A stretch of DNA of 64,000 bases from Cinnamomum chago (Eukaryota; Streptophyta; Magnoliopsida; Laurales; Lauraceae). Positions 3,711 through 63,157 of this stretch are shown in pieces. The notes beneath the pieces were generated by a model, which saw only the letters and a list, made by a program, of their open reading frames with translations, had not been told where the DNA came from and made no database searches. The stretch's first letter is position 1. Each line of letters opens with the position of its first letter. Location: positions 77,651,501 to 77,715,500 of the forward strand of contig CP142452.1 in the NCBI GenBank assembly GCA_038049695.1, given 5' to 3'. The translations under genes and the position numbers were made by a program.

Positions 3711-6700
3711 ACTCTCATTGCACGTGGATAATTACCATTGGGGAAGAAACATAAGTTGCCATAGACTCCTAAGTGGTAGGATAGGATTAAGAAGCAGGTC
3801 GCCCGGGTTATGAAGGTCAGCCCTAACCCACACCTATGTTACTGCGGGTCAGGTTTATCTGACCTGTGATTGATCCATATAGGATGCAGGCAAGGTTATG
3901 TGGATCAGGTCAAATTTTGCCACCTCTACATGCAATAATGCACAAAATCATTGAGTGAGAACAAGGAGATCCTAGCAGCCTTGATTGCAATACAATATCA
4001 TGTTATCTCATCCGTTTCAAAGGACGCCAAATCGGAAGGCTCTTATGGGAATGGAGGTCGGAGGTGGGAATGGCAGTGCAATCCCATTTAGCACAAATGG
4101 ATTTTCCAAAATTCACTAGATAAGATCCAACCGGTTAGGTCTATCGAGCCAATGGTTCTTTGCATACCAAAATATGCCAGAAGATCAAAAGGTACTAATT
4201 GCCTCATTCCACCTGGAGTGCAGTACAGTCCAGTGGTTCCGATGGTACGAATTAACCCAACCAAACCTCACATGCGAGTTGTCGGTGAAGGCCATTTGCG
4301 TGAAAGTTGGACCCACCGAGTAAGTAGATTTTTTTATGAATCTCTTTCTCGGGTAGGTCAAACTGGAAAGGTATATGAGTATCAAACCCAATTGGAAAGG
4401 TTAGCTAATCATGTCAATGAGTGGAGCGAAAAGGCCTTAGTAGTGTGTTTCATTGGAGGATTGAAGGATGAAATCACCCTCGACGTTAAGATGTTTTTTC
4501 TTATGTGCACTGCTGTAGGACTTGCTCACATGCAAAAGGAAGAATTACAGTGGGCTAGTCCATCTGCTATTGATTCCATGATTGGGCGAGTCAACCCATC
4601 TAACCATGCAGTACTGAACCAACTGTTATAGCATGAATAGAAAGACCTGATGTAAGAAAAATGAGAAGTTTTCGCCAGGTGGCTGCTTCAAAAAGCCCCA
4701 ACTGTTCTTGATCGAAGTTGGCAGCGATTAAGAGGAAGAGAAGGAAGCATCAGTTACAGACGAAGAAGTGGCACTCGAGATCTCCATTCATGCACTGTCA
4801 AGGGCGACATCACTGCACACCATGAGGGTTTATGGACTAATAAAGCACCAACCTGTCTAACCTTCTATGTATACTTATGTCTTACAATGCACGTTAACTA
4901 CAAAAACATGAAAAGGCAATATAAAACAATAACTAAGAATGATGCAACACACCCTATGGTAAAGAAAGCTGCTATTGGAGTGTAGAGGTTAAGGACCGAG
5001 ATAAAGATGTTGTTACAAAGTTTGGTAAGGGACTAGGAATGTGGCTGGTGTTGTGTATTCGGGGTTTTACCAATGATCAATTGTAAGGGAGTCGGTAGGT
5101 TCCTTGTCAAAAAAAAAAATGTGGAAAATTATGAAATGTGTAAGGGGGTCGGCGGGTTCCTTGTCATAAAAAAAATGTGGAAAATTATGAAATGTATAAG
5201 ACGACAGAAAAAAGTTTAAAAACTAGCAAGTAATTATTGTTGGGTAAAAAAAAAAGTAGTAAGTAATTTCTTTCCAGTTGGTTTTACTTCTACACTGGTA
5301 AATAATACCGGGATTCCCTTATGCTTGATGGACACCAAATCCATACCACATATGCCCTAGTTTCTCAGAACTGTCAAGCGCCAAGCCACACCAACATTTC
5401 AAAGTTCACAAGTATATCATCAGGGATCATAGGCTAAAAACAGAGTTCCATTGTCTCAGAATGATAACACAAGCATAATAACTGTACAAAATGAGGGGAT
5501 CTTCTGTATTAAAAAAAAATAAAAAATGAGGGGATCTTCTAGCATAGCCATATTTCCAGTGATGCACTGAGAGCAGTCACCTTTTAATACAGTTCCCAAT
5601 ACATAACAACAAAATCCTCCCAGGGTGACAGCAAGCAAGGATATGGTGGCCAACATTTTCTTTCTCTAGAATAGTAAGTAAAGGAATCTCTTGGGCGCTG
5701 AAGGGAGGCAATTTATTACTCTTCTTGATCTTCTCAATAATGTGGATATTCCGGAGGAAGGAGAGGACTGCAGGATTTGGGATGGAACCAATGATGGATA
5801 CTTCTCAGTCTCTTCATATTATAAATCCATATCCATTTCAAACAAACAAATGCAAAGAAGTCCGCTAGCTGGAGTTCGGAAAATCAAAGCTCCTTCTAGA
5901 GTGGCTACTTTTGGATGGCCGGTACTTCATGGTAGGATTCTAATTATGGATAACCTTAGGTGAAGAAGAAGAATCACGGTAAATGCTTGCCCAATGTGTT
6001 CGGCAGATGAGGAGATGGTAGATCATCTCATGTTTTCTTGCAAAGTTTCCCAGTCCCTGTGGATATCTATTTTGGCTTGGTTTGGAAGCAATTGGCTGTT
6101 CCCAAGCTCGATTTTAGCTCTGTTCGAGTGTTGGAAGACGCTGAAAAATTCACCTAGAGGTAAAGAAATGTGGAGGTCTTTTTTTCTTGGAATGCTATGG
6201 GTCCTATGGAAGGAAACTTAGACGCTTTGAAGGAAAAGCTGCCAATGTGGACTCGCTATTACTAATAGGAAGCCTCAAATTAACTATAGCCTCTTGGATG
6301 ATAGTCCTTCCACAATTCCAAAATTACTCAATAGAGCAAATTATGCTCAAGGGGAAGGAAGTCGCTTTTGGGCATGAAGGATTTTAAATTCTTTTGGGTG
6401 TCCTGTCTTTTGCTCTCCTTTTGTTTTTGGTTTGGGAGAGGGTTTGCTGTTCTTTCTTTTGTCCTTTTGGGTGGCCAGTCCAGAAGACTGAGATATATTT
6501 GAGAACGGGGGTCCATGTATACTTGGTATACTGGATTCTGGGTAGAGTCCTCATAGTATGGGGTCTCTAGGTATATGGGTAAATCTGTCAGCTGTCCTAA
6601 CGGATTGTATGGCTGTGCATCTCCAGATGTTCCTGGAAGATTACTCATCTGTGCAGTTTGGCTGTGAGTCAACCAAGGTCGAATGGCTCTGATACCAATA

Positions 6701-30807: not shown

Positions 30808-31386
30808 CAGTGCATGGCCGAGACCAGTGCAGTGCAGTGCATGGCCGAGACCAGTGCAGTGCAGTGCATGGCCGAGACCAGTGCATGGCCGAAACCAGTG
30901 CAGTGCAGTGCATGGCCGAGACCAGTGCAGTGCATGGCCGAGACCAGTGCAGCACATGGCCGAGACCAGTACAGTGCAGTGCAGTGCATTGCATGGCCGA
31001 GACCAGTGCATGGCCGAAACCAGTGCAGTGCAGTGCATGGCCGAGACCAGTGCATGGCCGAAACGAGTGCAGTGCAGTGCATGGCCGAGACCAGTGCAGT
31101 GCAGTGCATGGCCGAGACCAGTGCAGCACATGGCCGAGACCAGTACAATGCAGTGCATGGCCGAGACCAGTGCAGTGCAGTGCATGGCCGAGACCAGTGC
31201 AGGACCGAGCTCAGTACATGGCCGAGACCAGTGCATGGCCGAGACCAGTGCATGGCCGAGACCAGTGCAGTGCATGGCCGAGACCAGTGCAGGACCGAGC
31301 TCAGTACATGGCCGAGACCAGTGCATGGCCGAGACCAGTGCAGTGCAGTGCATGGCCGAGACCAGTGCAGGACCGAGCTCAGTGAC
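30808..31386 (+). repeat. Tandem repeat built from a 17-mer and a 5-mer, about 23 core units
   Basis: The core unit GTGCATGGCCGAGACCA (17 bp) occurs about 23 times with few changes. Between units there are zero to three copies of the 5-mer GTGCA, so spacing is 17 + 5n. A variant 17-mer GTGCAGGACCGAGCTCA appears three times near the right end (about 31196, 31288, 31366) as part of a larger repeat. The unit lacks stop codons in most frames, so several frames on both strands stay open for 190-260 codons; these are artefacts of the repeat. Confidence 0.92.
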
Positions 31387-34015: not shown

Positions 34016-34525
34016 CTATCCTTGTTTTTTTCTGATCCGTAACATGACTTGGACCCAACAACCACAAGGTTGCAATAGTGAGCCCTCCTAATGGACATAG
34101 TTGAAAAACCCACCATATCGGAAGAACCTACTAATTCAATCTTTCGTCTTTCTATGAACTGTTTTATATTTTTAAGAGTCAGCTAGTTGGTCACTTTTTT
34201 ATCGCCAAAAAGGGCCAATTACAGATCTCTCTGGGACATTTTTGGGACACCATACTCTGCATTCCATGACATCCACACTAGATCACATAATCAAGTATCC
34301 CATAAAGGGGAATTTGGAGGCAGAGAAAATTATATATTTGCTGCAGATCAAGATCCTACAATGCCATCACCCATAAAGCAATATAATCATGTAGATGGAC
34401 ACCCCATGCAGCACTAATTGGACACTTACCCTTTATCATATTGTATGGACCTACACATGGAAACTTAAAAGTAGCAAATCTGACTCTAGATTAAGGAACT
34501 GCTCATTGTAGGTATGGCCTAGAAG
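34016..34525 (-). other. RPL23A intron 2 between the outer LTR and hAT copy A
   Basis: Intron sequence with no recognised element. It ends in CCTAGAAG (34518-34525), one half of the original 8-bp target duplication of hAT copy A. Confidence 0.6.
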
Positions 34526-37500
34526 CAGGGCCGGCTCACCCCATAAGCTACTGAAGCAGGTGGTGGGGGCCTCACCATGAGGGGGGCTTCAAAATTTTGT
34601 AAATCAGGCTAAGGCAAATCCCAATTTTCAAGCCTCATTCATCATTATCTACCACTTAACGGTAAATAAGTTAACAAACCAAAAGCCTAATTCATCATTC
34701 TCTACCAACGGTAAATACATTAACCATTAACCAACCAACGCCCAATCGAAAGAAAGCATTAACCCCCAACTCTTCGTTTTCCAGGGACTGCCCAACCCAC
34801 GGTGCAACTGCAACTCTTCGTTTTCCACAGACTCCCCAACCCACTCTGCTCTATTTATCTCCTCCACCCAAACCCAAAACCCATTGTTTTATTCTCCATA
34901 ATCTAGCAAACAACAACAAAAAAAAAAAAAAAAATAGTGTCCCCCAATTCCAGCCGCCCCCCAATCGAGCTCTTCCATCCATACCAAATCCGATCTCAGC
35001 CCCTCTTCTCTGATTGAATCAAGCAGAAAAAAAAGAAAAAAAAAAAGCAAAGAAGAAGTAGCAGCAGCGAGGCACCGAGGTGGAGAAGGTACCTGGCACT
35101 GGACCATCATCGCATCAGCCCCTCTTCTCTTCTCAGCCGATCTCAGGCCCTCTTCTCTTCTCTTCTCATCATCTCGCCGATCTCAGACTCAGCCCCTCCA
35201 GGCTCCAGCCCTTCTTCTCTCAGCCGCTTCTTCTCCATCATCATCATCAATTCATCAATCATCATCACGCGATCGGCGATTCACGCAATCACGCCCTGGG
35301 CCCCCCGCCCCTGGCATCAAGCCATCAACAGTTCAACACCATCTCGCAGTCGCCGATTTCACTATTTCAGCAGGTAGCAGTCAGTCCCTCTTCTCTGATT
35401 GATTCATTGAATCAAACTGAAAAAAAAAAAAAGAAAGGAAAGAAGAAGAAGAAGCATCGCCGAAGATTGAAGAAGCACCGCCTGGGACTGGGAGTTCCAT
35501 ATTTCCATTTGACATAGAGCATCAGAAAGCTTTAATAAGGGTTTTAAGCTTTGAGCCTTTGACCTCGTTCTACGCACAGTAACGATTACACATTTACACG
35601 AGTGGGCCGAGTGGTGGAGTGGGCTGTGAGCGAGTGGCAGGCTGCAAGCTGCATCGTCATCACTTATTCACTTCATTGGAGTGGGCTTACATGTTACATC
35701 AGTAAGACAGTAACATCACGAGGGCCTGGTTTGTAGATCCGGACTTGGACTGCGCTTGCTCTTTTGGAACAGGTTCTTGGCTTTTTTTCTTCTTCTTTTT
35801 TTTAATCAAATCTGCATCTAATATACTGTTACAATATAGGTGATATTTATCTATTTGTTATTACTATGAAACGTAAGTTTGAATCTGGTGCTCAAAAACG
35901 TCAACGGAAAAAAAAAGAACAAGAGTTGATTCAATCTCAAAAAGATGCGATGTATAAATTTATTAAAAGAAATAAAGAAGATGAGATAGTGAACCCACCT
36001 ATAGAGAATGAACAGCTAGAGGGTAATGACGAACATAAATTAGATGATATTGAAACCATTAGAGAAAACGATGAAATTGAACATGAACTCGATGATAATG
36101 AAAGAATTAGACAAAATGATAAAATTGAACATGTTCTTCCTAGCATAGAACCTAATGAAAGTGCTGAGCTGAATGAGAATAGGAAAATAAACTTAAACTC
36201 AGCGGAAGTTTCGTCATTTGAGGAGAACCCCGGTGAACCATCTAACACTCTACTTGCAAATATATATGACCCGGGACAATGGAATAATGTTGATATAAAA
36301 CTAAGAGATTTATTAGTAGAAAAAGGTCCAGTTAGGGAAATCGGTTTAAAATATCCAGTCGGTGAAAAGTCAAGGAGATTTTCAATTAGACATTATACTC
36401 AAATAGCGCCAAATGGAGAAAAGTTTGATAGAAAATGGTTGGTATATTCAAAACATTGTGATAAGGTTTTTTGTTTCTGCTGCAAGTTATTTTCAAAATC
36501 TAAGAAAAGTCAATTGAGTAATGAAGGATGCAAAGATTGGAGAAATATTAGTCTTAAACTAAAACGTCATGAGAACTCAACTGGACATGCTAAAAACATG
36601 CTTTTGTGGATTGATTTAAAACAAAGGTTATTAAATAATAAGACAATTGATAAAGATATCCAAGAACAAATTGATAAGGAAAAAAAACATTGGAAAAATG
36701 TACTAGTAAGAATTATTGCTGTGATTAAAACCATTTCTAAGAATAACATGGCATTTCGTGGAAGCAATGAGAAGCTTTATGAAGAGAATAATGGGATTTT
36801 CTTAAGTATTATTGAAATGATTGCTGAATTCGATCTAGTAATGCAAGAACATGTTCGGCGTATCAAACAAGGTGTAATTAATAATCACTATCTTGGGCAC
36901 ATAATCCAAAATGAATTGATACAATTGTTGGCAACTGAAGTAAGAAATTTCATAATTACAAAACTTCGAGAAGCAAAATACTTTTCTGTTATCCTTGATT
37001 GCACTCCGGATAGAAGTCATCATGAACAAATGACCCTCGTTTTATGATTTGTAAATGTTTCAATAAGCCCAGTACAAATTGAAGAATATTTTCTGAATTT
37101 TATAAAAGTTGATGATACATCAGGAAAAGGACTTTTTGAGGAACTCATCAAAGTTTTAGAACTATTTAATCTAGATATTAATGATGTAAGAGGGCAGGGA
37201 TATGACAATGGATCGAATATGAAAGGTAAGCAACAAGGTGTGCAAAAACGATTGCTAGATTTGAATCCTAGAGCATTTTATACACCTTGTGGATGTCATA
37301 GTCTTAACTTAGTTATTAGTGATATGGCAAGCTCTTGTATAAAAGCGGTGTCTTTTTTTGGAGTAGTCCAACGTATCTATTGTTTATTTTCTTCATCAAC
37401 TAAGCGGTGGAAAATCTTTACTGACAATGTGAAAAAGCTTACTGTTAAGACATTATCAATAACACGTTGGGAGAGTCGAGAAGAAAGTGTTAGAGCAATA

Positions 37501-38600
37501 AGGTATCAAGCTCCAGAAATAAGAGATGCATTACTTGAGTTAGCAAATAGTAGTGACGATCCAAAAGTAAAAAGTGAAGCTGAAAGTTTAGCTATACATG
37601 ATATAGGAAATTATGAGTTTTTATTAGGTATGGTTATTTGGTATGAAATATTATTTTCTGTTAATTTGGTTAGTAAAAGTTTACAATCTAAAAAAATGCA
37701 TATTGATGGTGCCATTAGTGAATTAAAAGGTCTTGTTACATTCTTTGAAAAGTTTAGAGAAAACGGATTTGAGAAATCTATAGATATTGCAAAATGTATA
37801 GCACGTGAAATGAATGTTGAACCAATATTTCATGAAAGACGTATAATCCGAAGGAAAAAACAATTTGATGAGAGTGCCGATAACGAGGTGACTCAATCCC
37901 CAGAAGAGTCTTTTAGAACTACTTATTTTTATGTATTGTGGATCAAGCACTTTCATCTATTAGAAATAGGTTTGAACAACTTAAGAGCTACGAAGAAATG
38001 TTTGGATTTTTATTTGATATCAAAAGGTTGAAGTTATTAGATGATGATGATTTGAAACAGAGTTGTCTTAATCTTGAGCAATTCCTAAAACATGGGGAGC
38101 ATTCTGACATTGAAGGTATAGACTTGTTTGGAGAACTAAAAGTATTAAGAGAAGCTTTGCCAACAGGAACTCAAAGTGCACTTCAAGTATTAGATTATTT
38201 AAATAAAATTGAGTCTTTTCCAAATTCATATATTTCTTATAGAATACTATTAACAGTACCTGTTACGGTTGCTTCCGCCGAAAGAAGTTTCTCGAAATTA
38301 AAGTTAATAAAATCTTATCTGCGATCAACTATGTCACAAGAGAGATTAAGCGGGTTAGCCATTTTATCTATTGAGAAGAAAATTTTGGAAAACCTTGAAT
38401 ACAAAAACTTGATCAATAAATTTGCATCACAAAAGGCAAGAAAGGTTAAATTCACTTAAAAAAATGAATCCCTTAACAAGTTCCAAAAAAAAAACTAAAA
38501 AAGAAAAAACAATTTTTTTGTATTTTTGCCTGGAGCCACAAATTTTGGGGCCTCATTTATACTTTCGCCTGGGGCCACATATTGTCTTGAGACGGCCCTG
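34526..38600 (+). mobile_element. hAT transposon, copy A (4,075 bp)
   Basis: Terminal inverted repeats are CAGGGCCGGCTCA at the left and, reverse-complemented, CAGGGCCGTCTCA at the right (12 of 13 identical). The interior carries a broken transposase gene in plus orientation (35866-38459) and a long Ser/Pro-coding CT-rich leader (about 35080-35520) that I take to be 5' non-coding. The flanks CCTAGAAG (34518-34525) and AATGTGGT (38601-38608) are not duplicates of each other; they match the flanks of copy B instead. Copy B at 39609-43702 is nearly identical in opposite orientation. Confidence 0.93.
35866..38459 (+). pseudogene. hAT transposase (TTF-type zinc finger / ZMYM1-like), copy A, two lesions
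   Basis: The reading frame opens with a Lys-rich N terminus ([17 protein letters not shown]). An acidic region is followed by a TTF-type zinc finger (about residues 155-245, C-F-C-C-K-L-F-S then K-R-H-E-N-S-x-G-H), a DUF4371-type region ([14 protein letters not shown] onward) and part of the RNase-H-like core. It ends with the hAT C-terminal dimerisation domain (VASAERSFSKLKLIKSYLRS). An in-frame TGA at 37045-37047 splits it after TLVL, where relatives have an Arg or similar codon. A one-base deletion in a T-run near 37925-37930 then shifts the frame, so the C-terminal part is read from about 37938. Without these it would be about 860 residues. No functional transposase can be made. Copy B has the same two lesions. 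Confidence 0.88.
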
Positions 38601-39608
38601 AATGTGGTGAATAATCTTATATTGCGAGCAGTTGAAATTCTGTTATTTTCTTGTAGAAGTTAGGAAGAACAGAAATGTTGTAGCAACGAACTGCTGTTCT
38701 TGTCTTGAGATTGGAACTTAGAAGGCAGAAAGAACCTGCGGGAATCAATGTCCTATTGGAGGTCCAGGGTGATTCCGGTTCTTGTATGTATTGTGTGATT
38801 GTTGAAGTTTGATAAAGAATGCGAACGCACACACAAATAGAGAAAAATAAACAGAGAATTTTATCCTTCTCGTAGGGCCTTTAGACTTGGGTTCTTTGGC
38901 ATCCAGCTCCAACAGTTGACTGGAGATTCTGATAAAGGTTTTCTGTCTTATCATTATCTAGGACACCCTCCACCAAGGCATCGGCGTTATTTATGTTGAC
39001 CTATTTCTATCTGAATAGCATCTGCTCTGAACTATTTTTTTTTTCCCCTTCAAGACATCATTGGTTTGTGCTATTATGCATTTCTTGCCTCCTTTTACTG
39101 TCATATCTTAATAGTTACACAATTTTGTCAATTACTGCACAGCTGCTGCCACAAAGAAGACCGATCCAAAAGCACAGGCCTTGAAAGCTGCCAAGGCAGT
39201 GAAATCAGGCGCTTCAACCTTAAAGAAGGCGGCCAAGAAGATCAGAACATCTGTCACATTTCATCGCCCAAAGACTTTGAAAAAAGAAAGGAACCCCAAG
39301 TACCCTCGTATTAGTGCACCCCCAAGGAATAAGCTAGACCATTATCAAATACTCAAATACCCCCTCACGACGGAGTCTGCTATGAAGAAGATAGAAGACA
39401 ACAATACTCTGGTTTTTATTGTTGATATTAAAGCGGACAAGAAAATGGTAAAGAATGCAGTGAAGAAGATGTACGACATTCAGACCAAGAAAGTGAAAAC
39501 CTTGATCAGGTCAATCTCTATGATTTTCCCTTTTTATTTTTTTACTTTTCCTTTGTTTGGCCCTCAGCATATATTCACCTTTTTTGTATTTGTGGACGCT
39601 CTTCTAGG
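38601..39608. other. 1,008-bp inverted segment between the two hAT copies
   Basis: Bounded by AATGTGGT at the left and CTTCTAGG at the right. These are reverse complements of the sequences just outside copy B on the right (ACCACATT) and copy A on the left (CCTAGAAG). Reversing the segment restores a matching 8-bp duplication around each transposon and puts RPL23A exon 2 back on the minus strand between exons 1 and 3. Confidence 0.88.
39143..39509 (+). CDS. RPL23A: RPL23A exon 2, in inverted orientation
   Basis: Preceded by a TGCACAG acceptor and followed by a GTCAAT donor. It encodes the Lys/Ala-rich N-terminal extension ([20 protein letters not shown]) and the core of the uL23 fold, including [47 protein letters not shown] and [13 protein letters not shown]. 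The first two bases complete an Ala codon begun by the final G of exon 1; the last two bases (AG) are completed by exon 3. No plus-strand exon 1 or exon 3 exists nearby. Its true partners are on the minus strand. Confidence 0.93.
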
Positions 39609-42600
39609 CAGGGCCGTCTCAAGACAATATGTGGCCCCAGGCGAAAGTATAAATGAGGCCCCAAAATTTGTGGCTCCAGGCAAAAATACAAAAAAATTGT
39701 TTTTTCTTTTTTAGTTTTTTTTTTGGAACTTGTTAAGGGATTCATTTTTTTAAGTGAATTTAACCTTTCTTGCCTTTTGTGATGCAAATTTATTGATCAA
39801 GTTTTTGTATTCAAGGTTTTCCAAAATTTTCTTCTCAATAGATAAAATGGCTAACCCGCTTAATCTCTCTTGTGACATAGTTGATCGCAGATAAGATTTT
39901 ATTAACTTTAATTTCGAGAAACTTCTTTCGGCGGAAGCAACCGTAACAGGTACTGTTAATAGTATTCTATAAGAAATATATGAATTTGGAAAAGACTCAA
40001 TTTTATTTAAATAATCTAATACTTGAAGTGCACTTTGAGTTCCTGTTGGCAAAGCTTCTCTTAATACTTTTAGTTCTCCAAACAAGTCTATACCTTCAAT
40101 GTCAGAATGCTCCCCATGTTTTAGGAATTGCTCAAGATTAAGACAACTCTGTTTCAAATCATCATCATCTAATAACTTCAACCTTTTGATATCAAATAAA
40201 AATCCAAACATTTCTTCGTAGCTCTTAAGTTGTTCAAACCTATTTCTAATAGATGAAAGTGCTTGATCCACAATACATAAAAATAAGTAGTTCTAAAAGA
40301 CTCTTCTGGGGATTGAGTCACCTCGTTATCGGCACTCTCATCAAATTGTTTTTTCCTTCGGATTATACGTCTTTCATGAAATATTGGTTCAACATTCATT
40401 TCACGTGCTATACATTTTGCAATATCTATAGATTTCTCAAATCCGTTTTCTCTAAACTTTTCAAAGAATGTAACAAGACCTTTTAATTCACTAATGGCAC
40501 CATCAATATGCATTTTTTTAGATTGTAAACTTTTACTAACCAAATTAACAGAAAATAATATTTCATACCAAATAACCATACCTAATAAAAACTCATAATT
40601 TCCTATATCATGTATAGCTAAACTTTCAGCTTCACTTTTTACTTTTGGATCGTCACTACTATTTGCTAACTCAAGTAATGCATCTCTTATTTCTGGAGCT
40701 TGATACCTTATTGCTCTAACACTTTCTTCTCGACTCTCCCAACGTGTTATTGATAATGTCTTAACAGTAAGCTTTTTCACATTGTCAGTAAAGATTTTCC
40801 ACCGCTTAGTTGATGAAGAAAATAAACAATAGATACGTTGGACTACTCCAAAAAAAGACACCGCTTTTATACAAGAGCTTGCCATATCACTAATAACTAA
40901 GTTAAGACTATGACATCCACAAGGTGTATAAAATGCTCTAGGATTCAAATCTAACAATCGTTTTTGCACACCTTGTTGCTTACCTTTCATATTCGATCCA
41001 TTGTCATATCCCTGCCCTCTTACATCATTAATATCTAGATTAAATAGTTCTAAAACTTTGATGAGTTCCTCAAAAAGTCCTTTTCCTGATGTATCATCAA
41101 CTTTTATAAAATCCAGAAAATATTCTTCAATTTGTACTGGGCTTATTGAAACATTTACAAATCATAAAACGAGGGTCATTTGTTCATGATGACTTATATC
41201 CGGAGTGCAATCAAGGATAACAGAAAAGTATTTTGCTTCTCGAAGTTTTGTAATTATGAAATTTCTTACTTCAGTTGCCAACAATTGTATCAATTCATTT
41301 TGGATTATGTGCCCAAGATAGTGATTATTAATTACACCTTGTTTGATACGCCGAACATGTTCTTGCATTACTAGATCGAATTCAGCAATCATTTCAATAA
41401 TACTTAAGAAAATCCCATTATTCTCTTCATAAAGCTTCTCATTGCTTCCACGAAATGCCATGTTATTCTTAGAAATGGTTTTAATCACAGCAATAATTCT
41501 TACTAGTACATTTTTCCAATGTTTTTTTTCCTTATCAATTTGTTCTTGGATATCTTTATCAATTGTCTTATTATTTAATAACCTTTGTTTTAAATCAATC
41601 CACAAAAGCATGTTTTTAGCATGTCCAGTTGAGTTCTCATGACGTTTTAGTTTAAGACTAATATTTCTCCAATCTTTGCATCCTTCATTACTCAATTGAC
41701 TTTTCTTAGATTTTGAAAATAACTTGCAGCAGAAACAAAAAACCTTATCACAATGTTTTGAATATACCAACCATTTTCTATCAAACTTTTCTCCATTTGG
41801 CGCTATTTGAGTATAATGTCTAATTGAAAATCTCCTTGACTTTTCACCGACTGGATATTTTAAACCGATTTCCCTAACTGGACCTTTTTCTACTAATAAA
41901 TCTCTTAGTTTTATATCAACATTATTCCATTGTCCCGGGTCATATATATTTGCAAGTAGAGTGTTAGATGGTTCACCGGGGTTCTCCTCAAATGACGAAA
42001 CTTCCGCTGAGTTTAAGTTTATTTTCCTATTCTCATTCAGCTCAGCACTTTCATTAGGTTCTATGCTAGGAAGAACATGTTCAATTTTATCATTTTGTCT
42101 AATTCTTTCATTATCATCGAGTTCATGTTCAATTTCATCGTTTTCTCTAATGGTTTCAATATCATCTAATTTATGTTCGTCATTACCCTCTAGCTGTTCA
42201 TTCTCTATAGGTGGGTTCACTATCTCATCTTCTTTATTTCTTTTAATAAATTTATACATCGCATCTTTTTGAGATTGAATCAACTCTTGTTCTTTTTTTT
42301 TCCGTTGACGTTTTTGAGCACCAGATTCAAACTTATGTTTCATAGTAATAACAAATAGATAAATATCACCTATATTGTAACAGTATATTAGATGCAGATT
42401 TGATTAAAAAAAAGAAGAAGAAAAAAAGCCAAGAACCTGTTCCAAAAGAGCAAGCGCAGTCCAAGTCCGGATCTACAAACCAGGCCCTCGTGATGTTACT
42501 GTCTTACTGATGTAACATGTAAGCCCACTCCAATGAAGTGAATAAGTGATGATGATGCAGCTTGCAGCCTGCCACTCGCTCACAGCCCACTCCACCACTC

Positions 42601-43702
42601 GGCCCACTCGTGTAAATGTGTAATCGTTACTGTGCGTAGAACGAGGTCAAAGGCTCAAAGCTTAAAACCCTTATTAAAGCTTTCTGCTCTTCTGATGCTC
42701 TATGTCAAATGGAAATATGGAACTCCCAGTCCCAGGCGGTGCTTCTTCAATCTTCGGCGATGCTTCTTCTTCTTCTTTCCTTTCTTTTTTTTTTTTTCAG
42801 TTTGATTCAATGAATCAATCAGAGAAGAGGGACTGACTGCTACCTGCTGAAATAGTGAAATCGGCGACTGCGAGATGGTGTTGAACTGTTGATGGCTTGA
42901 TGCCAGGGGCGGGGGGCCCAGGGCGTGATTGCGTGAATCGCCGATCGCGTGATGATGATTGATGAATTGATGATGATGATGGAGAAGAAGCGGCTGAGAG
43001 AAGAAGGGCTGGAGCCTGGAGGGGCTGAGTCTGAGATCGGCGAGATGATGAGAAGAGAAGAGAAGAGGGCCTGAGATTGGCTGAGATCGGCTGAGAAGAG
43101 AAGAGGGGCTGATGCGATGATGGTCCAGTGCCAGGTACCTTCTCCACCTCGGTGCCTCGCTGCTGCTTCTTCTTCTTTGCTTTTTTTTTTTTCTTTTTTT
43201 TCTGCTTGATTCAATCAGAGAAGAGGGGCTGAGATCGGATTTGGTATGGATGGAAGAGCTCGATTGGGGGGCGGCTGGAATTGGGGGACACAAATTTTTT
43301 TTTTTTTTTTGTTGTTGTTTGCTAGATTATGGAGAATAAAACAATGGGTTTTGGGTTTGGGTGGAGGAGATAAATAGAGCAGAGTGGGTTGGGGAGTCTG
43401 TGGAAAACGAAGAGTTGCAGTTGCACCGTGGGTTGGGCAGTCCCTGGAAAACGAAGAGTTGGGGGTTAATGCTTTCTTTCGATTGGGCGTTGGTTGGTTA
43501 ATGGTTAATGTATTTACCGTTGGTAGAGAATGATGAATTAGGCTTTTGGTTTGTTAACTTATTTACCGTTAAGTGGTAGATAATGATGAATGAGGCTTGA
43601 AAATTGGGATTTGCCTTAGCCTGATTTACAAAATTTTGAGGCCCCCCTCATGGTGAGGCCCCCACCACCTGCTTCAGTAGCTTATGGGGTGAGCCGGCCC
43701 TG
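39609..43702 (-). mobile_element. hAT transposon, copy B (4,094 bp), inverted relative to copy A
   Basis: Plus-strand ends are CAGGGCCGTCTCA at the left and TGAGCCGGCCCTG at the right, so it mirrors copy A. Differences from A are few. In the protein these include H for R at residue 3 and I for R just before the zinc-finger-distal SHHEQ motif; there is also a short extra segment in the leader near 43070-43090. Flanks are CTTCTAGG (39601-39608) and ACCACATT (43703-43710). It lies in what was RPL23A intron 1. Confidence 0.93.
39750..42343 (-). pseudogene. hAT transposase, copy B, same two lesions
   Basis: Minus-strand frame from the ATG at 42343 through the TTF zinc finger to an in-frame TGA (about 41164-41162), continuing in the same frame to about 40178. 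A one-base frameshift then moves the dimerisation domain to another frame, ending at 39750. The stop and frameshift are at the same positions as in copy A, so the defect predates separation of the copies or has been shared between them by gene conversion. Transposition would have needed a transposase supplied by another element. Confidence 0.88.
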
Positions 43703-43710
43703 ACCACATT

Positions 43711-44561: not shown

Positions 44562-44580
44562 CTTTAGAAGAGGGAGCCAT
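44562..44580 (-). CDS. RPL23A: RPL23A exon 1 (six codons plus one base)
   Basis: ATG at 44580 is followed by codons for MAPSSK and a final G, then the donor GTATTG at 44561. Very short first coding exons are usual in plant RPL23A genes. The leftover G joins CT at the start of exon 2 to make Ala, so sequence and phase agree. Upstream on the minus strand an acceptor (TTTTCCAG, 44624-44617) suggests a 5' UTR intron. Confidence 0.85.
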
Positions 44581-44616
44581 TTAGCAAGAACAACTCAAAC
44601 ACTCACACTAAAGTAC

Positions 44617-57281: not shown

Positions 57282-58154
57282 TAAAGGTGGCAAATGTGTT
57301 TAACGAAATGGATACGGTGCTTGTAAGTTTTATTATCTTAGGCTTAATCAATCTGCTGCTGGGTTAATGTTCCATACTCAAGAAACATACTTCGACCCCA
57401 TTTAATAACTGGGCCGGGCTTGGATTAAGTGAGAGAAAGCCCACAGCCCGGCCTGGCCATACTCGTGTAAGGAATGCAGGTAATTTAACTGAATTTGTCC
57501 AAATAATTGCTCAAATGCCAACAAAAGTGATTAAAAGCCCGTTTCAACCCCGATTGATTGATTAAATGGGCGGGCTTGGGCCTGACTTTTATGTCCCGTA
57601 TAGGGCTTGGAAACCTTAGCCCGGCCCAGCCATGAACACTGTTAGAAGATAGGGGCTTCTTTTGTGCCCACATGACTGAAAAATGTGACTAGCCGCTGAT
57701 GTGGCATTAATCACATATTTCCTCCTCGGCACTCCTATTTAACTGAAATTTGAGACTATATTTCTCTTCATTATCTCTATGTGGCCCAAGAGGCGGAACC
57801 GGTATACAGTGATTGGGGGAGCCATTGCTTGGAAAAAATTCTCAAGGGACATTGCTAAAAAATTCTTAAAATATTAATTTATCTAAAGGGCTTTTTTTTT
57901 TGGTAATTTAGGACTGCCCCTGCCAACCCCTAGTTTCGCCTCTCTGTGGGCCCACTATAGAGTGTTTCAAGGTTGCCGTGTAATAGCTGCAAGACGGGGA
58001 ATGGATCCCGTGTAGGGCGGGGCAGCAGTGGGTCTTTTTGGAGACTTTTCTAATCGGATCTTGGATTTTTCTTAATTGGTTAGATGTAATAAATAAAGTT
58101 GAAATGCTCAAGCCTCAAGCCTCCTCAAAGTCTCTGGTCGAGAACAGCAAAAAG
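57282..58154. other. Spacer between RIBA3 and the receptor-like protein gene
   Basis: Contains GGCCCGGGC-type patches (57410-57640) of the kind seen in plant MITE ends, and a small MITE at 57789-57943. It should also hold the receptor gene's promoter and 5' UTR, but I cannot mark a TATA box with confidence. Confidence 0.5.
57789..57943. repeat. Small MITE of about 155 bp
   Basis: The ends AGAGGCGGAACC and GTTTCGCCTCT are imperfect inverted repeats. Flanks GTGGCCCA and GTGGGCCCA are close to an 8-bp duplication. hAT-type origin is inferred. Confidence 0.45.
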
Positions 58155-58733
58155 ATGAAAGGCTCTTCTTACATCATGATGTTGGTGGTGGTGGTGAGTT
58201 TGTTGAATTGTTATGTGGAGTGTGAGGGGTGTTTGGAGGAAGAAATGTCACTTCTCTTGCAGCTTAAAAGCTCATTTAACCTTTCAAAGGAGGATTCCTG
58301 GAGTAGTTGGAAAGGACAAAACTGCTGCGAATGGGGAGGGGTTCATTGCAGTAATACAACGTCTCGTGTGTCTGACATCCTTCTCAAAGACGTTAGGCCG
58401 CTGTCAGCGGATAGAATCTGGTACCCAAAGGAGTCTGTCAAGATACTTGCTCAATTCAAAGAGTTGCAATATCTCATTATGTCCAGTAATCGGATGGGTG
58501 GATCTGATATTCTCCAAGGTAATAAGATCGCTCAAAATACTGCTTTGAGCTCTGTTTGAGTTAATTTTTATGTGTATAAATCTAATACTATGTAAATATT
58601 AGGAGAATTCTAAGTCATAACCAGTTCTTTATTGTTGTTGATATTATTATTGTTATAATTCTTTTTGGAAGAAAAGTACTTTTGATAGTGCCCACATATA
58701 TTGAATTAATCCCATCACAGGGAGCCTCAACCC

Positions 58734-59419
58734 CAGTGGCAGATGGAGTGTAATCCACTGGGGGCCTGGCCCCCCAGTGGATTTCTAAATTTTATTTCTA
58801 ATACTGGTGGGGCCCACTAATTTTTTCCATTAGGCCCCCAATGAATTTTTTGGGCCCCCAATGGATTTTTGTAGCCCAATATTAACTTTAATTAATATAT
58901 GTTCGGATACTACTTGTGTGTTTAAATATGTCCAACTGCTATTGCAGGCAGACTTTTTGGGAAAAAAATTTTTATGTACACTAAGTTAGGCCCAAATCAA
59001 TTAGGCCCCCAGTGACATTGAACCAAGCCCCCCAATGAAAACTCGTAGAGAACAATTGTGATAAATAAATATGTCTTGTTTTATTGCTTGAAATTATTAT
59101 ATTATATTTGTTCCATATAAAAGGTTTGGGGTAAATCTGCACACTATTTGTCCTTGCTAGGCATGATTTGCAATGCAGTAGAAATCTACAAACTATCTGT
59201 CTTTGAATGCACATTTTTGTGTATTAGTTACTGATAGTGTATGTAAAAGGTCCACTACTTTTTTTGTGTATTGTTTTTTCTCAAGCATGAAGAAAAAAAG
59301 AAGAAAAAATCATTTGCAATCATATAAATAATAATAAAAAAAATTCCGGGGGCGTTGCCCCCGTACCGCCTATTACTTAATCGTGCCCCCAGTGATTTTG
59401 AATCCTGGATCCGCCACTG
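58734..59419. mobile_element. Non-autonomous hAT element (686 bp) in the receptor gene intron
   Basis: The ends CAGTGGCAGAT and ATCCGCCACTG are inverted repeats with one mismatch. A perfect 8-bp duplication CTCAACCC lies at 58726-58733 and 59420-59427. No transposase is encoded. It sits in the single intron of the receptor-like protein gene (58519-59999), well away from the splice sites. Confidence 0.9.
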
Positions 59420-60898
59420 CTCAACCCTATATACTCTTTATAGCAATTTGCTTTTATCCTGTTATCATCATCAACGTTATTGGAAGAATATAAGTTTTGA
59501 TATGGCCCACATATGATACATTCCTATCACATGGGGGCAAATGAACTAAGGTGGATATAGCTCTACTATAATTTAATTTATTAGAGTGATGGGCAAATCA
59601 TTTTCTATCACAGGCTAACACACTCATGATTAAGTGATGTTGGCACTTTTTATTTTCTATCAAAACAGACATCACTTGGCCTGGGCTGCTTTGCATTCAC
59701 ATTTAATTTCTTTTGCTCTTGTTCTAGAACGATATTACTTTAAAAATATATGGGCCTCAAAATTTACGATTTGTGGCCTTTTGCCTATAAGTGGCCGGTC
59801 CAACATTCTGTGGCCCAGCCTATCCAGTGATTAGGCCTAACATTTGGGCCAAGGTTTCAGCAACACAAACTGAGAACTAGATTGACTAGAAAAAGAGTGG
59901 AACACAAACCAAAGAAATAATGACTTAATTATTTTATGAAGAGAGGTGCTAATATTCTTCATGACTAAAAATTAATAACTCTCTTTGTTTTCATCGTAGC
60001 ATTTTGCAAATTGCAGTACTTGAAGTCACTCGGACTTTCTTCTACTTCGTTGGAAGGTAAAATTCCTCATTGTATTGGAAAGATGCATTCCCTTCAAGTC
60101 TTGGATTTATCCGACAATCAACTGCAAGGGACTGTTTCTCCTTCGACATTCAACAACCTTACAATGATCACAGCTCTTCTTCTTTCTAACAATCACTTTG
60201 TTGGTACAATTCCATTTTCCATGTTTGCAAACCTCTCCAAACTCATTTCACTTGACCTATCAAATAATTACCAATTGGAAGTGGAAACTGAGTCGCCAAA
60301 CTGGGTTCCTCATTTCCAACTAACAAGTCTAAACTTAGCAAACTGCAAGCTGAACAGACTTAGTGGTAGCATTGTCCCAAGTTTCCTCTCCACCCAACAC
60401 ACCTTAGAATACTTGGCTTTGTCGAATTCCTCCCTTGCTGGGGACATTCCTTCTTATTTGTTATACAATTCTACGCAATACCTGGAGTTGCAAGGAAACT
60501 CTTTCAGTGGCCCATTTCCTCTTTCTCACCAAAATACAACTTCACCACTCACGTCACTTGACATATCAAACAATCGAGTTTATGGGTCACTTCCTGAAAA
60601 CTTTGTTGACCTCTTCCCTATTTTATATTATTGTGACATGTCTGCAAATGCTTTGCAAGGCAATCTTCCTCCAAAAATGGGTATAGGGTATTTGCAATCG
60701 CTGTTCTTGTCCGACAACAACTTCTCTGGAGAATTGCCCCCTGGCCTGGTGAAAAGCATCCGCATGAGATACTTGGTCTTATCAAACAACAGATTGCAAG
60801 GTGAGATGCTTCCTGGAAATGGAAGCATGGGAGGACTAGTATGCTTAGAGCTTGATGGCAATGAGTTCACCACCCCCCCTAACATCTCAAAAACTCCC

Positions 60899-62228
60899 TG
60901 ATCAATCCTAGAAGAGGGTTGCAATTATTAATTATTCTCCGCTATTATCTCTGCTTGAAGAAGCAAAGACGTTAACCGAGTATCGTATCCACTGGGACAA
61001 AAAGGCTAAGTTGCGCTGTTTCCTAAATTCCTAAACTAATTCTATTGGAAAACGAAGTAATGGGCTGATTGGTTTTGATTAACAAATTAAAGATTTCTAA
61101 ATTAACAAAGTAAAAGATAGGGTTGATTCAATTAGAGAAAAGATCTAAGGGTACGAATCCACTCTAACCTCGCACAATGGCAAGTATAGGCTTAGGGTTT
61201 TATTGTCAACGCTACAGAAACTCGTCTTGGTTACAAACCTTCAGAGTCAATAAATAAAGGATGCGGATGTAAATCAGGGCATAACCTATCTCTATGGCAT
61301 AGATTATCCTAAATCTAACAAGCACATTCATTCAAGCATCATTATATGACTTAGTATTCAAATCTACAAGATTAAAATACCAAAGAAAGAAATATTGCAT
61401 TCATAAAATCCATTCAATGAATTAGCATCTTGTCATATAATCAAAAGCGTTTAAAATAAACCCTAAACCTATACATCACCATAAACAAAAGGTTAGGGCT
61501 TCATCGCAACCCAAAGATAAGGAGTTAGTTACGCATGGACGACGATTGACAAAGAATCTCTGATGAAATCGCCATGGCTCCGCTTCCAAAAGCTCCAAAA
61601 CCTTGCTCCAGACCTTCTCCCAAAGTGTGAATATCCCCAGAAACGAGTTAGGGCTCCTATATATAAGTTTTGGGGTGAAAAAGGTCTTTAATTCGGGTAG
61701 GAGATGGATTCCCGTCGGGTCCGGGCCCACTGGTCATCACAGCGAACTTCGCGAGGTCATATCTCCCTCGATATAGCTCCGATTTGCACAATCTTGGACT
61801 CCACGGATATCTACTCGAAAAGATCTTTCCAACGGTACGTAGATTTAATGAATCCGACACTCGAGTTGAAAGTTATGACCATTTCAAGTTGCTGCCTCTG
61901 AAAATTTCGAGAATCATAGTGCAATTAGAAGACCTTCCATGTTGGCATGCTATGGGGTGAGTGGGACCCATGTTGGAGACCCAAGGCATGTTTGGACTCT
62001 TACTTTGCTTTCTTATTTGAGTCTCCTCCCATATTTGGCAATCTTTCTTACTTGCAACTCCTTCTTTGTCATGCTTTGTGATTTCTTCCATTTTAGCTAT
62101 GAATTTCTCTCCTTGCATTTGTAGGGCCTACAAACAATAAAATAACATAATTAGTTTAATTAATCTCTATTGACGGTATAACCAAGTCCTCGTTAGGGGC
62201 CTAAAATGCATCTTTTAGGCTCTCATCA
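60899..62228 (-). mobile_element. Solo LTR (1,330 bp) inserted in coding exon 2 of the receptor gene
   Basis: Ends are TGATCAATCC at the left and GGCTCTCATCA at the right (TG...CA). A perfect 5-bp duplication CTCCC flanks it (60894-60898 and 62229-62233). There is no internal retrotransposon coding region, primer-binding site or second LTR. The orientation is a guess: on the minus strand the element starts TGATGAGAGCC. The intact duplication and the open host frame on both sides point to a recent event. Confidence 0.88.
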
Positions 62229-63157
62229 CTCCCAATTTGGTAATCCTGAACATAAGGAACAACCATTTGTCCGGAAATATCTCAAGTTGGTTGCCTGTGC
62301 TTCAGTCTTTAACTGTGCTCTTGGTAAGTGGAAATCGTTTCGAAGGTTCGATTCCGTCACATATTTGTCAAATGGAGTCATTGCAGTTATTAGATCTCTC
62401 TTGTAATGGCCTTGGAGGAGCCGTTCCGTCTTGCCTTGCTGGTGTTCCTTCTTGGAAGAGTGATTATTACTCAGGGTTGATAGGCGTTCCAATTGATTTA
62501 ATCACCAAAGGAATATCATACAATTATACAGGCATTCCTGTCCAGTTGATGACTTTGATTGATTTGTCGTGGAACAAGTTGACGGGAGCTATTCCATTTG
62601 AAATGGGAAATATGAAAGGGCTAAAGGCATTGAACTTGTCACACAACCTTCTTAACGGTCCCTTGCCAGTATCATTTCAAAATATGGAGAACTTGGAGAG
62701 TTTGGATCTTTCACATAACAATCTCACAGGAAAAATCCCTCAAGAATTCACCAATCTTAGTTTCATGAGTACTTTCAATGTTGCTTTCAATAACCTATCA
62801 GGTGAGATTCCATCCCAAGGACAGTTTCTCACATTTACAAATAGTAGCTATGAGGGGAATCAAGGTCTCTGTGGCACACCGTTGACAGTAAATTGCTCAT
62901 CAAATAATCCCAAGCACCCCAATGAAAATGGGAAAGTAGAAGAAAAAGAAGAAAATGGGATCCTCGACAGTGATTTGTTTTACTACTCATGTGTGGCCAT
63001 CTCATACTGTTTGGGTTTTTGGGGCTCCATTGGCCTTCTCTTTTTCAGTAGTTGGAGGAAAAAATTCTACATGACCATGGATGCATTTCAAGATTGGTGT
63101 TTTTGGAAACTTTGGAGAATGGTGAGATACATTAGAAATCGATGTTGTAATCAGTAA

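Follow-up and report, generated by a model that had tools for sequence, protein, structure and literature searches.

Inversion of a uL23 (RPL23A) exon between two oppositely oriented hAT transposons with exchanged target duplications

Two nearly identical hAT transposons, copies A and B, in opposite orientation bound a segment of about 1 kb that carries exon 2 of a uL23 (RPL23A) gene and is turned around with respect to the DNA on either side. The inversion is strongly supported. It reverses one exon and thereby breaks a ribosomal-protein gene, and the allele in the assembled orientation is probably null, making no protein. With moderate confidence, the inverted segment could be attributed to two opposite hAT insertions followed by homologous recombination between them. 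The locus, found within a 64-kb stretch of DNA (the window), offers a small natural example where the target duplications and the order of the exons lead to the same conclusion on both the inversion and the ancestral state.

Copy A is flanked by the octamers CCTAGAAG on the left (34518–34525) and AATGTGGT on the right (38601–38608), and copy B by CTTCTAGG (39601–39608) and ACCACATT (43703–43710), all read on the plus strand. These octamers pair crosswise: the left flank of A (34518–34525) is the reverse complement of the left flank of B (39601–39608), and the right flank of A (38601–38608) is the reverse complement of the right flank of B (43703–43710). Comparison of both flank pairs gives no matched target duplication belonging to either copy alone. 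Each octamer is present twice, exchanged between A and B, and has the length of the 8-bp target duplication characteristic of hAT elements; such an exchange is expected for inversion by ectopic recombination. According to the 8-mer frequencies of the window itself, the chance of one reverse-complement match is 4.8e-5, and that of both is 2.3e-9. The crosswise octamers, none matched around its own copy, had been claimed in an earlier note on this DNA, and all four are present where it had placed them. The flipped stretch that it delimited (38601–39608) is correct provided that the inner octamers are included; the host segment between them, which holds uL23 exon 2, occupies 38609–39600 (992 bp).

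The leader, start-codon and last exons of uL23 lie on the minus strand, so the gene runs right to left and exon 2 alone is reversed. The start-codon exon (44562–44616, minus strand) codes for MAPSSK plus one base at 44580–44562 and ends with a GT donor. It was chosen by donor, phase and place from 16 sites of the window fitting the start pattern, and the choice is supported by the Persea americana protein P0002, which likewise begins MAPSSKAAATKKT. The 5' boundary of this exon is placed at 44616, as suggested by an acceptor-like CAG and by similarity to the Persea sequence. Exon 2 (39143–39509, plus strand, 367 nt) has an AG acceptor and a GT donor and is located on the strand opposite to the other uL23 exons. 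The last exon (28221–28137, minus strand, 85 nt) has an AG acceptor and contains the stop codon; besides exon 2, it is the only strong uL23 match in the window. The leader exon (at least 46676–46590, minus strand), probably 5' untranslated, agrees in 26 of 29 residues with what is annotated upstream in Persea P0002 (E 7.9e-14). A weaker resemblance to upstream residues of P0002, interrupted by two stops, is seen immediately before the uL23 ATG. The annotated upstream residues of the Persea protein are probably an untranslated leader.

When joined, the coding exons (19 + 367 + 85 nt) are compatible in phase and give an open product of 156 aa plus a stop. This product carries both Pfam domains of uL23 (PF03939, 74.7 bits; PF00276, 45 bits) and along its entire length shares 97% identity with Persea americana P0002, the closest by identity among the best 120 of 6999 homologues; the top match by E-value in the same set is a longer Perilla protein that is only 74% identical. 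The likeness to Persea suggests that the gene belongs to a Lauraceae-like plant. Splicing of exon 1 directly to exon 3 is out of frame. In the would-be intron 2, a minisatellite-like array with units around CAGTGCATGGCCGAGAC is observed (30808–31384), and the long open frames that overlap it on both strands are probably spurious.

An in silico flip of 38601–39608 brings CCTAGAAG to both sides of copy A and ACCACATT to both sides of copy B, and it makes the three coding exons colinear and in order on the minus strand. In this flipped-back state, copy A is located within uL23 intron 2 and copy B within intron 1. Target duplications and exon order are two unrelated records, and their agreement indicates that the gene-breaking arrangement seen in the assembly is derived. 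The claim that the segment between the transposons is inverted is strongly supported by the crosswise duplications and, independently, by the strands of the four uL23 exons.

The reconstructed protein has several unusual residues. At position 125 it has K instead of the N present in 119 of the best 120 homologues (of 6999), and at position 137 H instead of the Y present in 118 of them. At position 36 it has A, a residue found in 3 of the 109 of these 120 homologues aligned there, K being found in 98. Both Persea uL23 proteins checked have the common residue at positions 36, 125 and 137; six further unusual positions are common to the new sequence and Persea P0002. Judging by the residues, K36A, N125K and Y137H could be a weak hint of relaxed constraint, as might be expected of a uL23 copy that is dispensable. 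Persea has another uL23 protein, P0005, encoded on another contig, and this makes the loss of one copy plausible.

Other features of the window are located away from these exons. Plus-strand frames at 58038–63157 encode a leucine-rich-repeat N-terminal domain and leucine-rich repeats and likely belong to one or more genes of the LRR receptor type. The plus-strand frame 52948–53301 matches positions 84–190 of 191 of DHBP synthase (riboflavin synthesis; E 6.6e-39), probably as one exon of a gene or as a fragment. A weak match to retrotransposon gag is found in the frame 4152–4631 (20.2 bits, below the 24.1 cut-off).

Copy A (34526–38600, 4075 bp) carries its transposase on the plus strand, and copy B (39609–43702, 4094 bp), inverted relative to A, on the minus strand. 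Copy A and the reverse complement of copy B are 99.3% identical, with nine mismatches and three indels (1, 10 and 8 bp) over 4094 aligned columns, which agrees with the earlier description of the arms as inverted, nearly identical and about 4.1 kb long. Homologous copies in opposite orientation are therefore present at both breakpoints, as expected of a transposon-mediated inversion by ectopic recombination. The similarity of the arms ends at the element termini, which argues against involvement of a larger host duplication. Both copies start with CAGGGCCG and finish with CGGCCCTG, so that CAGGGCCG occurs at both ends of A and B as the short terminal inverted repeat typical of hAT elements. 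Exact copies of the 8-bp arm ends were not found elsewhere in the 64-kb window.

Assignment to hAT is supported by the copy A frame 37938–38459, in which the hAT dimerisation domain (Dimer_Tnp_hAT, PF05699) scores 57.6 bits, well above the cut-off of 21.4. The frame 35866–37047 matches DUF4371 at 31.9 bits, slightly below the cut-off of 32.1, and the frame 37219–38031 has no Pfam match. The best 120 of 1228 relatives of the first transposase frame are at most 67% identical to it, over part of the query. Those named by organism are plant proteins, some are named zinc finger MYM-type or TTF-type with HAT dimerisation domain, and their precomputed domains include DUF4371 and, in several cases, also the hAT domain. 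The transposase of copy A is broken by an in-frame TGA (37045–37047) and then by a change of frame at approximately 37.9–38.0 kb. Copy B has the same TGA and frame change; the surrounding bases recur, and the frames are 393, 270 and 173 aa long in each copy. The shared defects point to common descent from one defective element, and both copies would have moved with transposase supplied from elsewhere.

The first transposase frame differs between the copies in two residues. Residue 3 is R in copy A, the common state (58 of 78 aligned), and H in copy B; residue 383 is R in copy A, which is absent from the residues printed for this position, and I in copy B (22 cases; V is commonest, with 61), both counts referring to the best 120 of 1228 relatives. 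Both copies seem, on these residues, to have changed since their split, and the differences consequently do not separate the models of origin. Divergence of the arms, nine mismatches in 4075 compared bases, is 0.22%. At a plant substitution rate of roughly 5–7e-9 per site per year, it would correspond to an age of approximately 0.15–0.25 million years, a value that is not relied upon here, conversion between the arms making them look younger.

The preferred sequence of events would begin with the entry of near-identical, already defective hAT elements, in opposite orientation, into the minus-strand uL23 gene. Insertion B could have occurred in intron 1 at the target ACCACATT, and insertion A in intron 2 at the target CCTAGAAG. 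The two inverted 4.1-kb copies would then undergo homologous recombination, flipping the 1 kb between them, swapping the inner target duplications and reversing exon 2. For this account we infer that the insertions came before the inversion, that homologous recombination produced it, that the protein is missing and that the segment may flip again. Recombination between inverted elements is described for maize as leaving elements with duplications that are usually non-identical (PMC8225341). The differences between A and B are distributed unevenly: the inner 1345 columns of the arm alignment have none, and all 12 are found in the outer 2749. Such an inner run could stem from recombination or from a conversion tract, a weak signal. 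The chance of it is 0.008 for the inner end, 0.017 for either end and 0.109 for any gap, and 0.069 when only the last four differences, which lie in the transposase part, are counted.

Homologous recombination is preferred only modestly over its rivals. The earlier note had named it as the cause of the inversion; the inversion itself stands on the flanks and exon strands, and the mechanism is plausible without being unique, since the same four flanks could result from insertion of a hybrid element. In this sister-chromatid reaction, a single hAT is present, the ends of the two sister copies of one element jointly enter a nearby site, and an uninverted two-element state never exists. In a symbolic model, the resulting string of flanks and elements is identical to that produced by recombination. 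Hybrid insertion should give copies identical at birth and exchanged duplications, and should neither delete nor duplicate host DNA; the near identity of A and B and the swapped octamers fit it, and recombination fits equally. Only one insertion is needed, which explains the 99.3% identity and the common TGA and frame change, whereas recombination first needs the same gene to have received two near-identical insertions, oppositely oriented and separated by about 1 kb. The Galileo paper (PMC2775673) calls the two outcomes strikingly similar, with the copies identical after hybrid insertion and chimeric after recombination, chimerism of both copies being its criterion for an inversion by ectopic recombination. 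Sister-chromatid transposition is also described for Ac/Ds, yet with inverted duplications and composite insertions as products (PMC8225341). At uL23, both copies are broken, so hybrid insertion would require an outside transposase in addition to an unusual reaction, and it does not predict the difference-free inner columns, weak as that signal is. This origin is possible, though somewhat doubtful. The locus is well suited to telling homologous recombination from hybrid-element insertion, both of which leave the same flanks.

Misassembly is an improbable source of the structure, though it would account for the flipped exon as well as for the crosswise flanks. In this case, the true chromosome would have matched duplications and a colinear uL23 gene, the 1-kb segment having been joined backwards within the near-identical arms. 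The identity of the inner 1345 columns means that reads shorter than this cannot orient the segment. However, the window is free of N, so the structure was assembled through, and reads over approximately 9.2 kb would span the whole of it; the three substitutions at near-invariant sites weakly hint, moreover, at a uL23 copy that could be lost. In maize, inversions are documented to arise when two hAT elements undergo reversed-ends transposition into a new target (PMC8225341), but in the symbolic model such an event makes only one new crosswise pair of duplications. Two pairs are present here, and this reaction can be given next to no credence. Chance likeness of the flanks, with unrelated insertions having lost their own duplications, was rejected as practically negligible: its probability is about 2e-9, the reversal of the exon would still have to be explained separately, and supporting evidence for this reading was not found. 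A composite (macro-transposon) origin was also discarded by reasoning, as the left flank of A should then equal the right flank of B directly, which the flanks do not show.

The segment might flip again, as the two-state switch suggested in the earlier note would require, by analogy with humans, in whom inversions mediated by inverted repeats of 1.6–24 kb recur (PMC3961182). In silico, one orientation of the segment keeps uL23 colinear and the other does not. In either orientation, a transcript from the uL23 promoter would cross a whole hAT in the sense and then in the antisense direction, forming a hairpin with 4.1-kb arms. A live exon switch, in which exon 2 would change orientation repeatedly, either in tissue or in the germ line, and the 4.1-kb hairpin could silence the hAT family by analogy with Mu killer and Mutator, is the boldest reading and highly improbable. 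If both orientations occur in one species, the locus would allow inversion to be measured in the nuclear DNA of a plant.

A literature search found no hAT-linked inversion in Lauraceae, and absence from print is not claimed. In the Factor VIII intron inversions of haemophilia A, inverted repeats recombine, turning part of a gene and breaking it. Those inversions are human and the inverted segment is far larger (140 kb in one abstract), whereas at uL23 hAT repeats flank one exon. Ectopic recombination between repeats, transposons among them, is listed in a review of plant inversions, which states that mechanisms of this type occur in plants (PMC7093584). The Galileo inversions 2j, 2q7 and 2z3 of Drosophila buzzatii are polymorphic chromosomal inversions with 7-bp duplications and elements of the P superfamily, for which chimerism of the copies was demonstrated; the uL23 case is a 1-kb inversion inside one gene (PMC2775673). 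Alternative transposition of maize Ac/Ds shares with the uL23 locus a hAT element at each breakpoint and 8-bp duplications. In maize, reversed-ends events have one new duplication pair and inverted fragments of approximately 81–82 kb (PMC8225341), in contrast to two crosswise pairs and a segment of about 1 kb here. Mu killer of maize likewise has inverted transposase sequence beside a gene, and a read-through hairpin RNA of approximately 4 kb was proposed for it; it belongs to Mutator rather than hAT, and it is a partial inverted duplication that is known to act in silencing. The paper on it ties this silencing to antisense transcripts rather than to read-through, leaving long hairpins possible (PMC3440606). 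Transposon-mediated inversion with exchanged duplications is already known, and the uL23 locus is a small, unusually legible case of it, in which one ribosomal-protein exon is turned.
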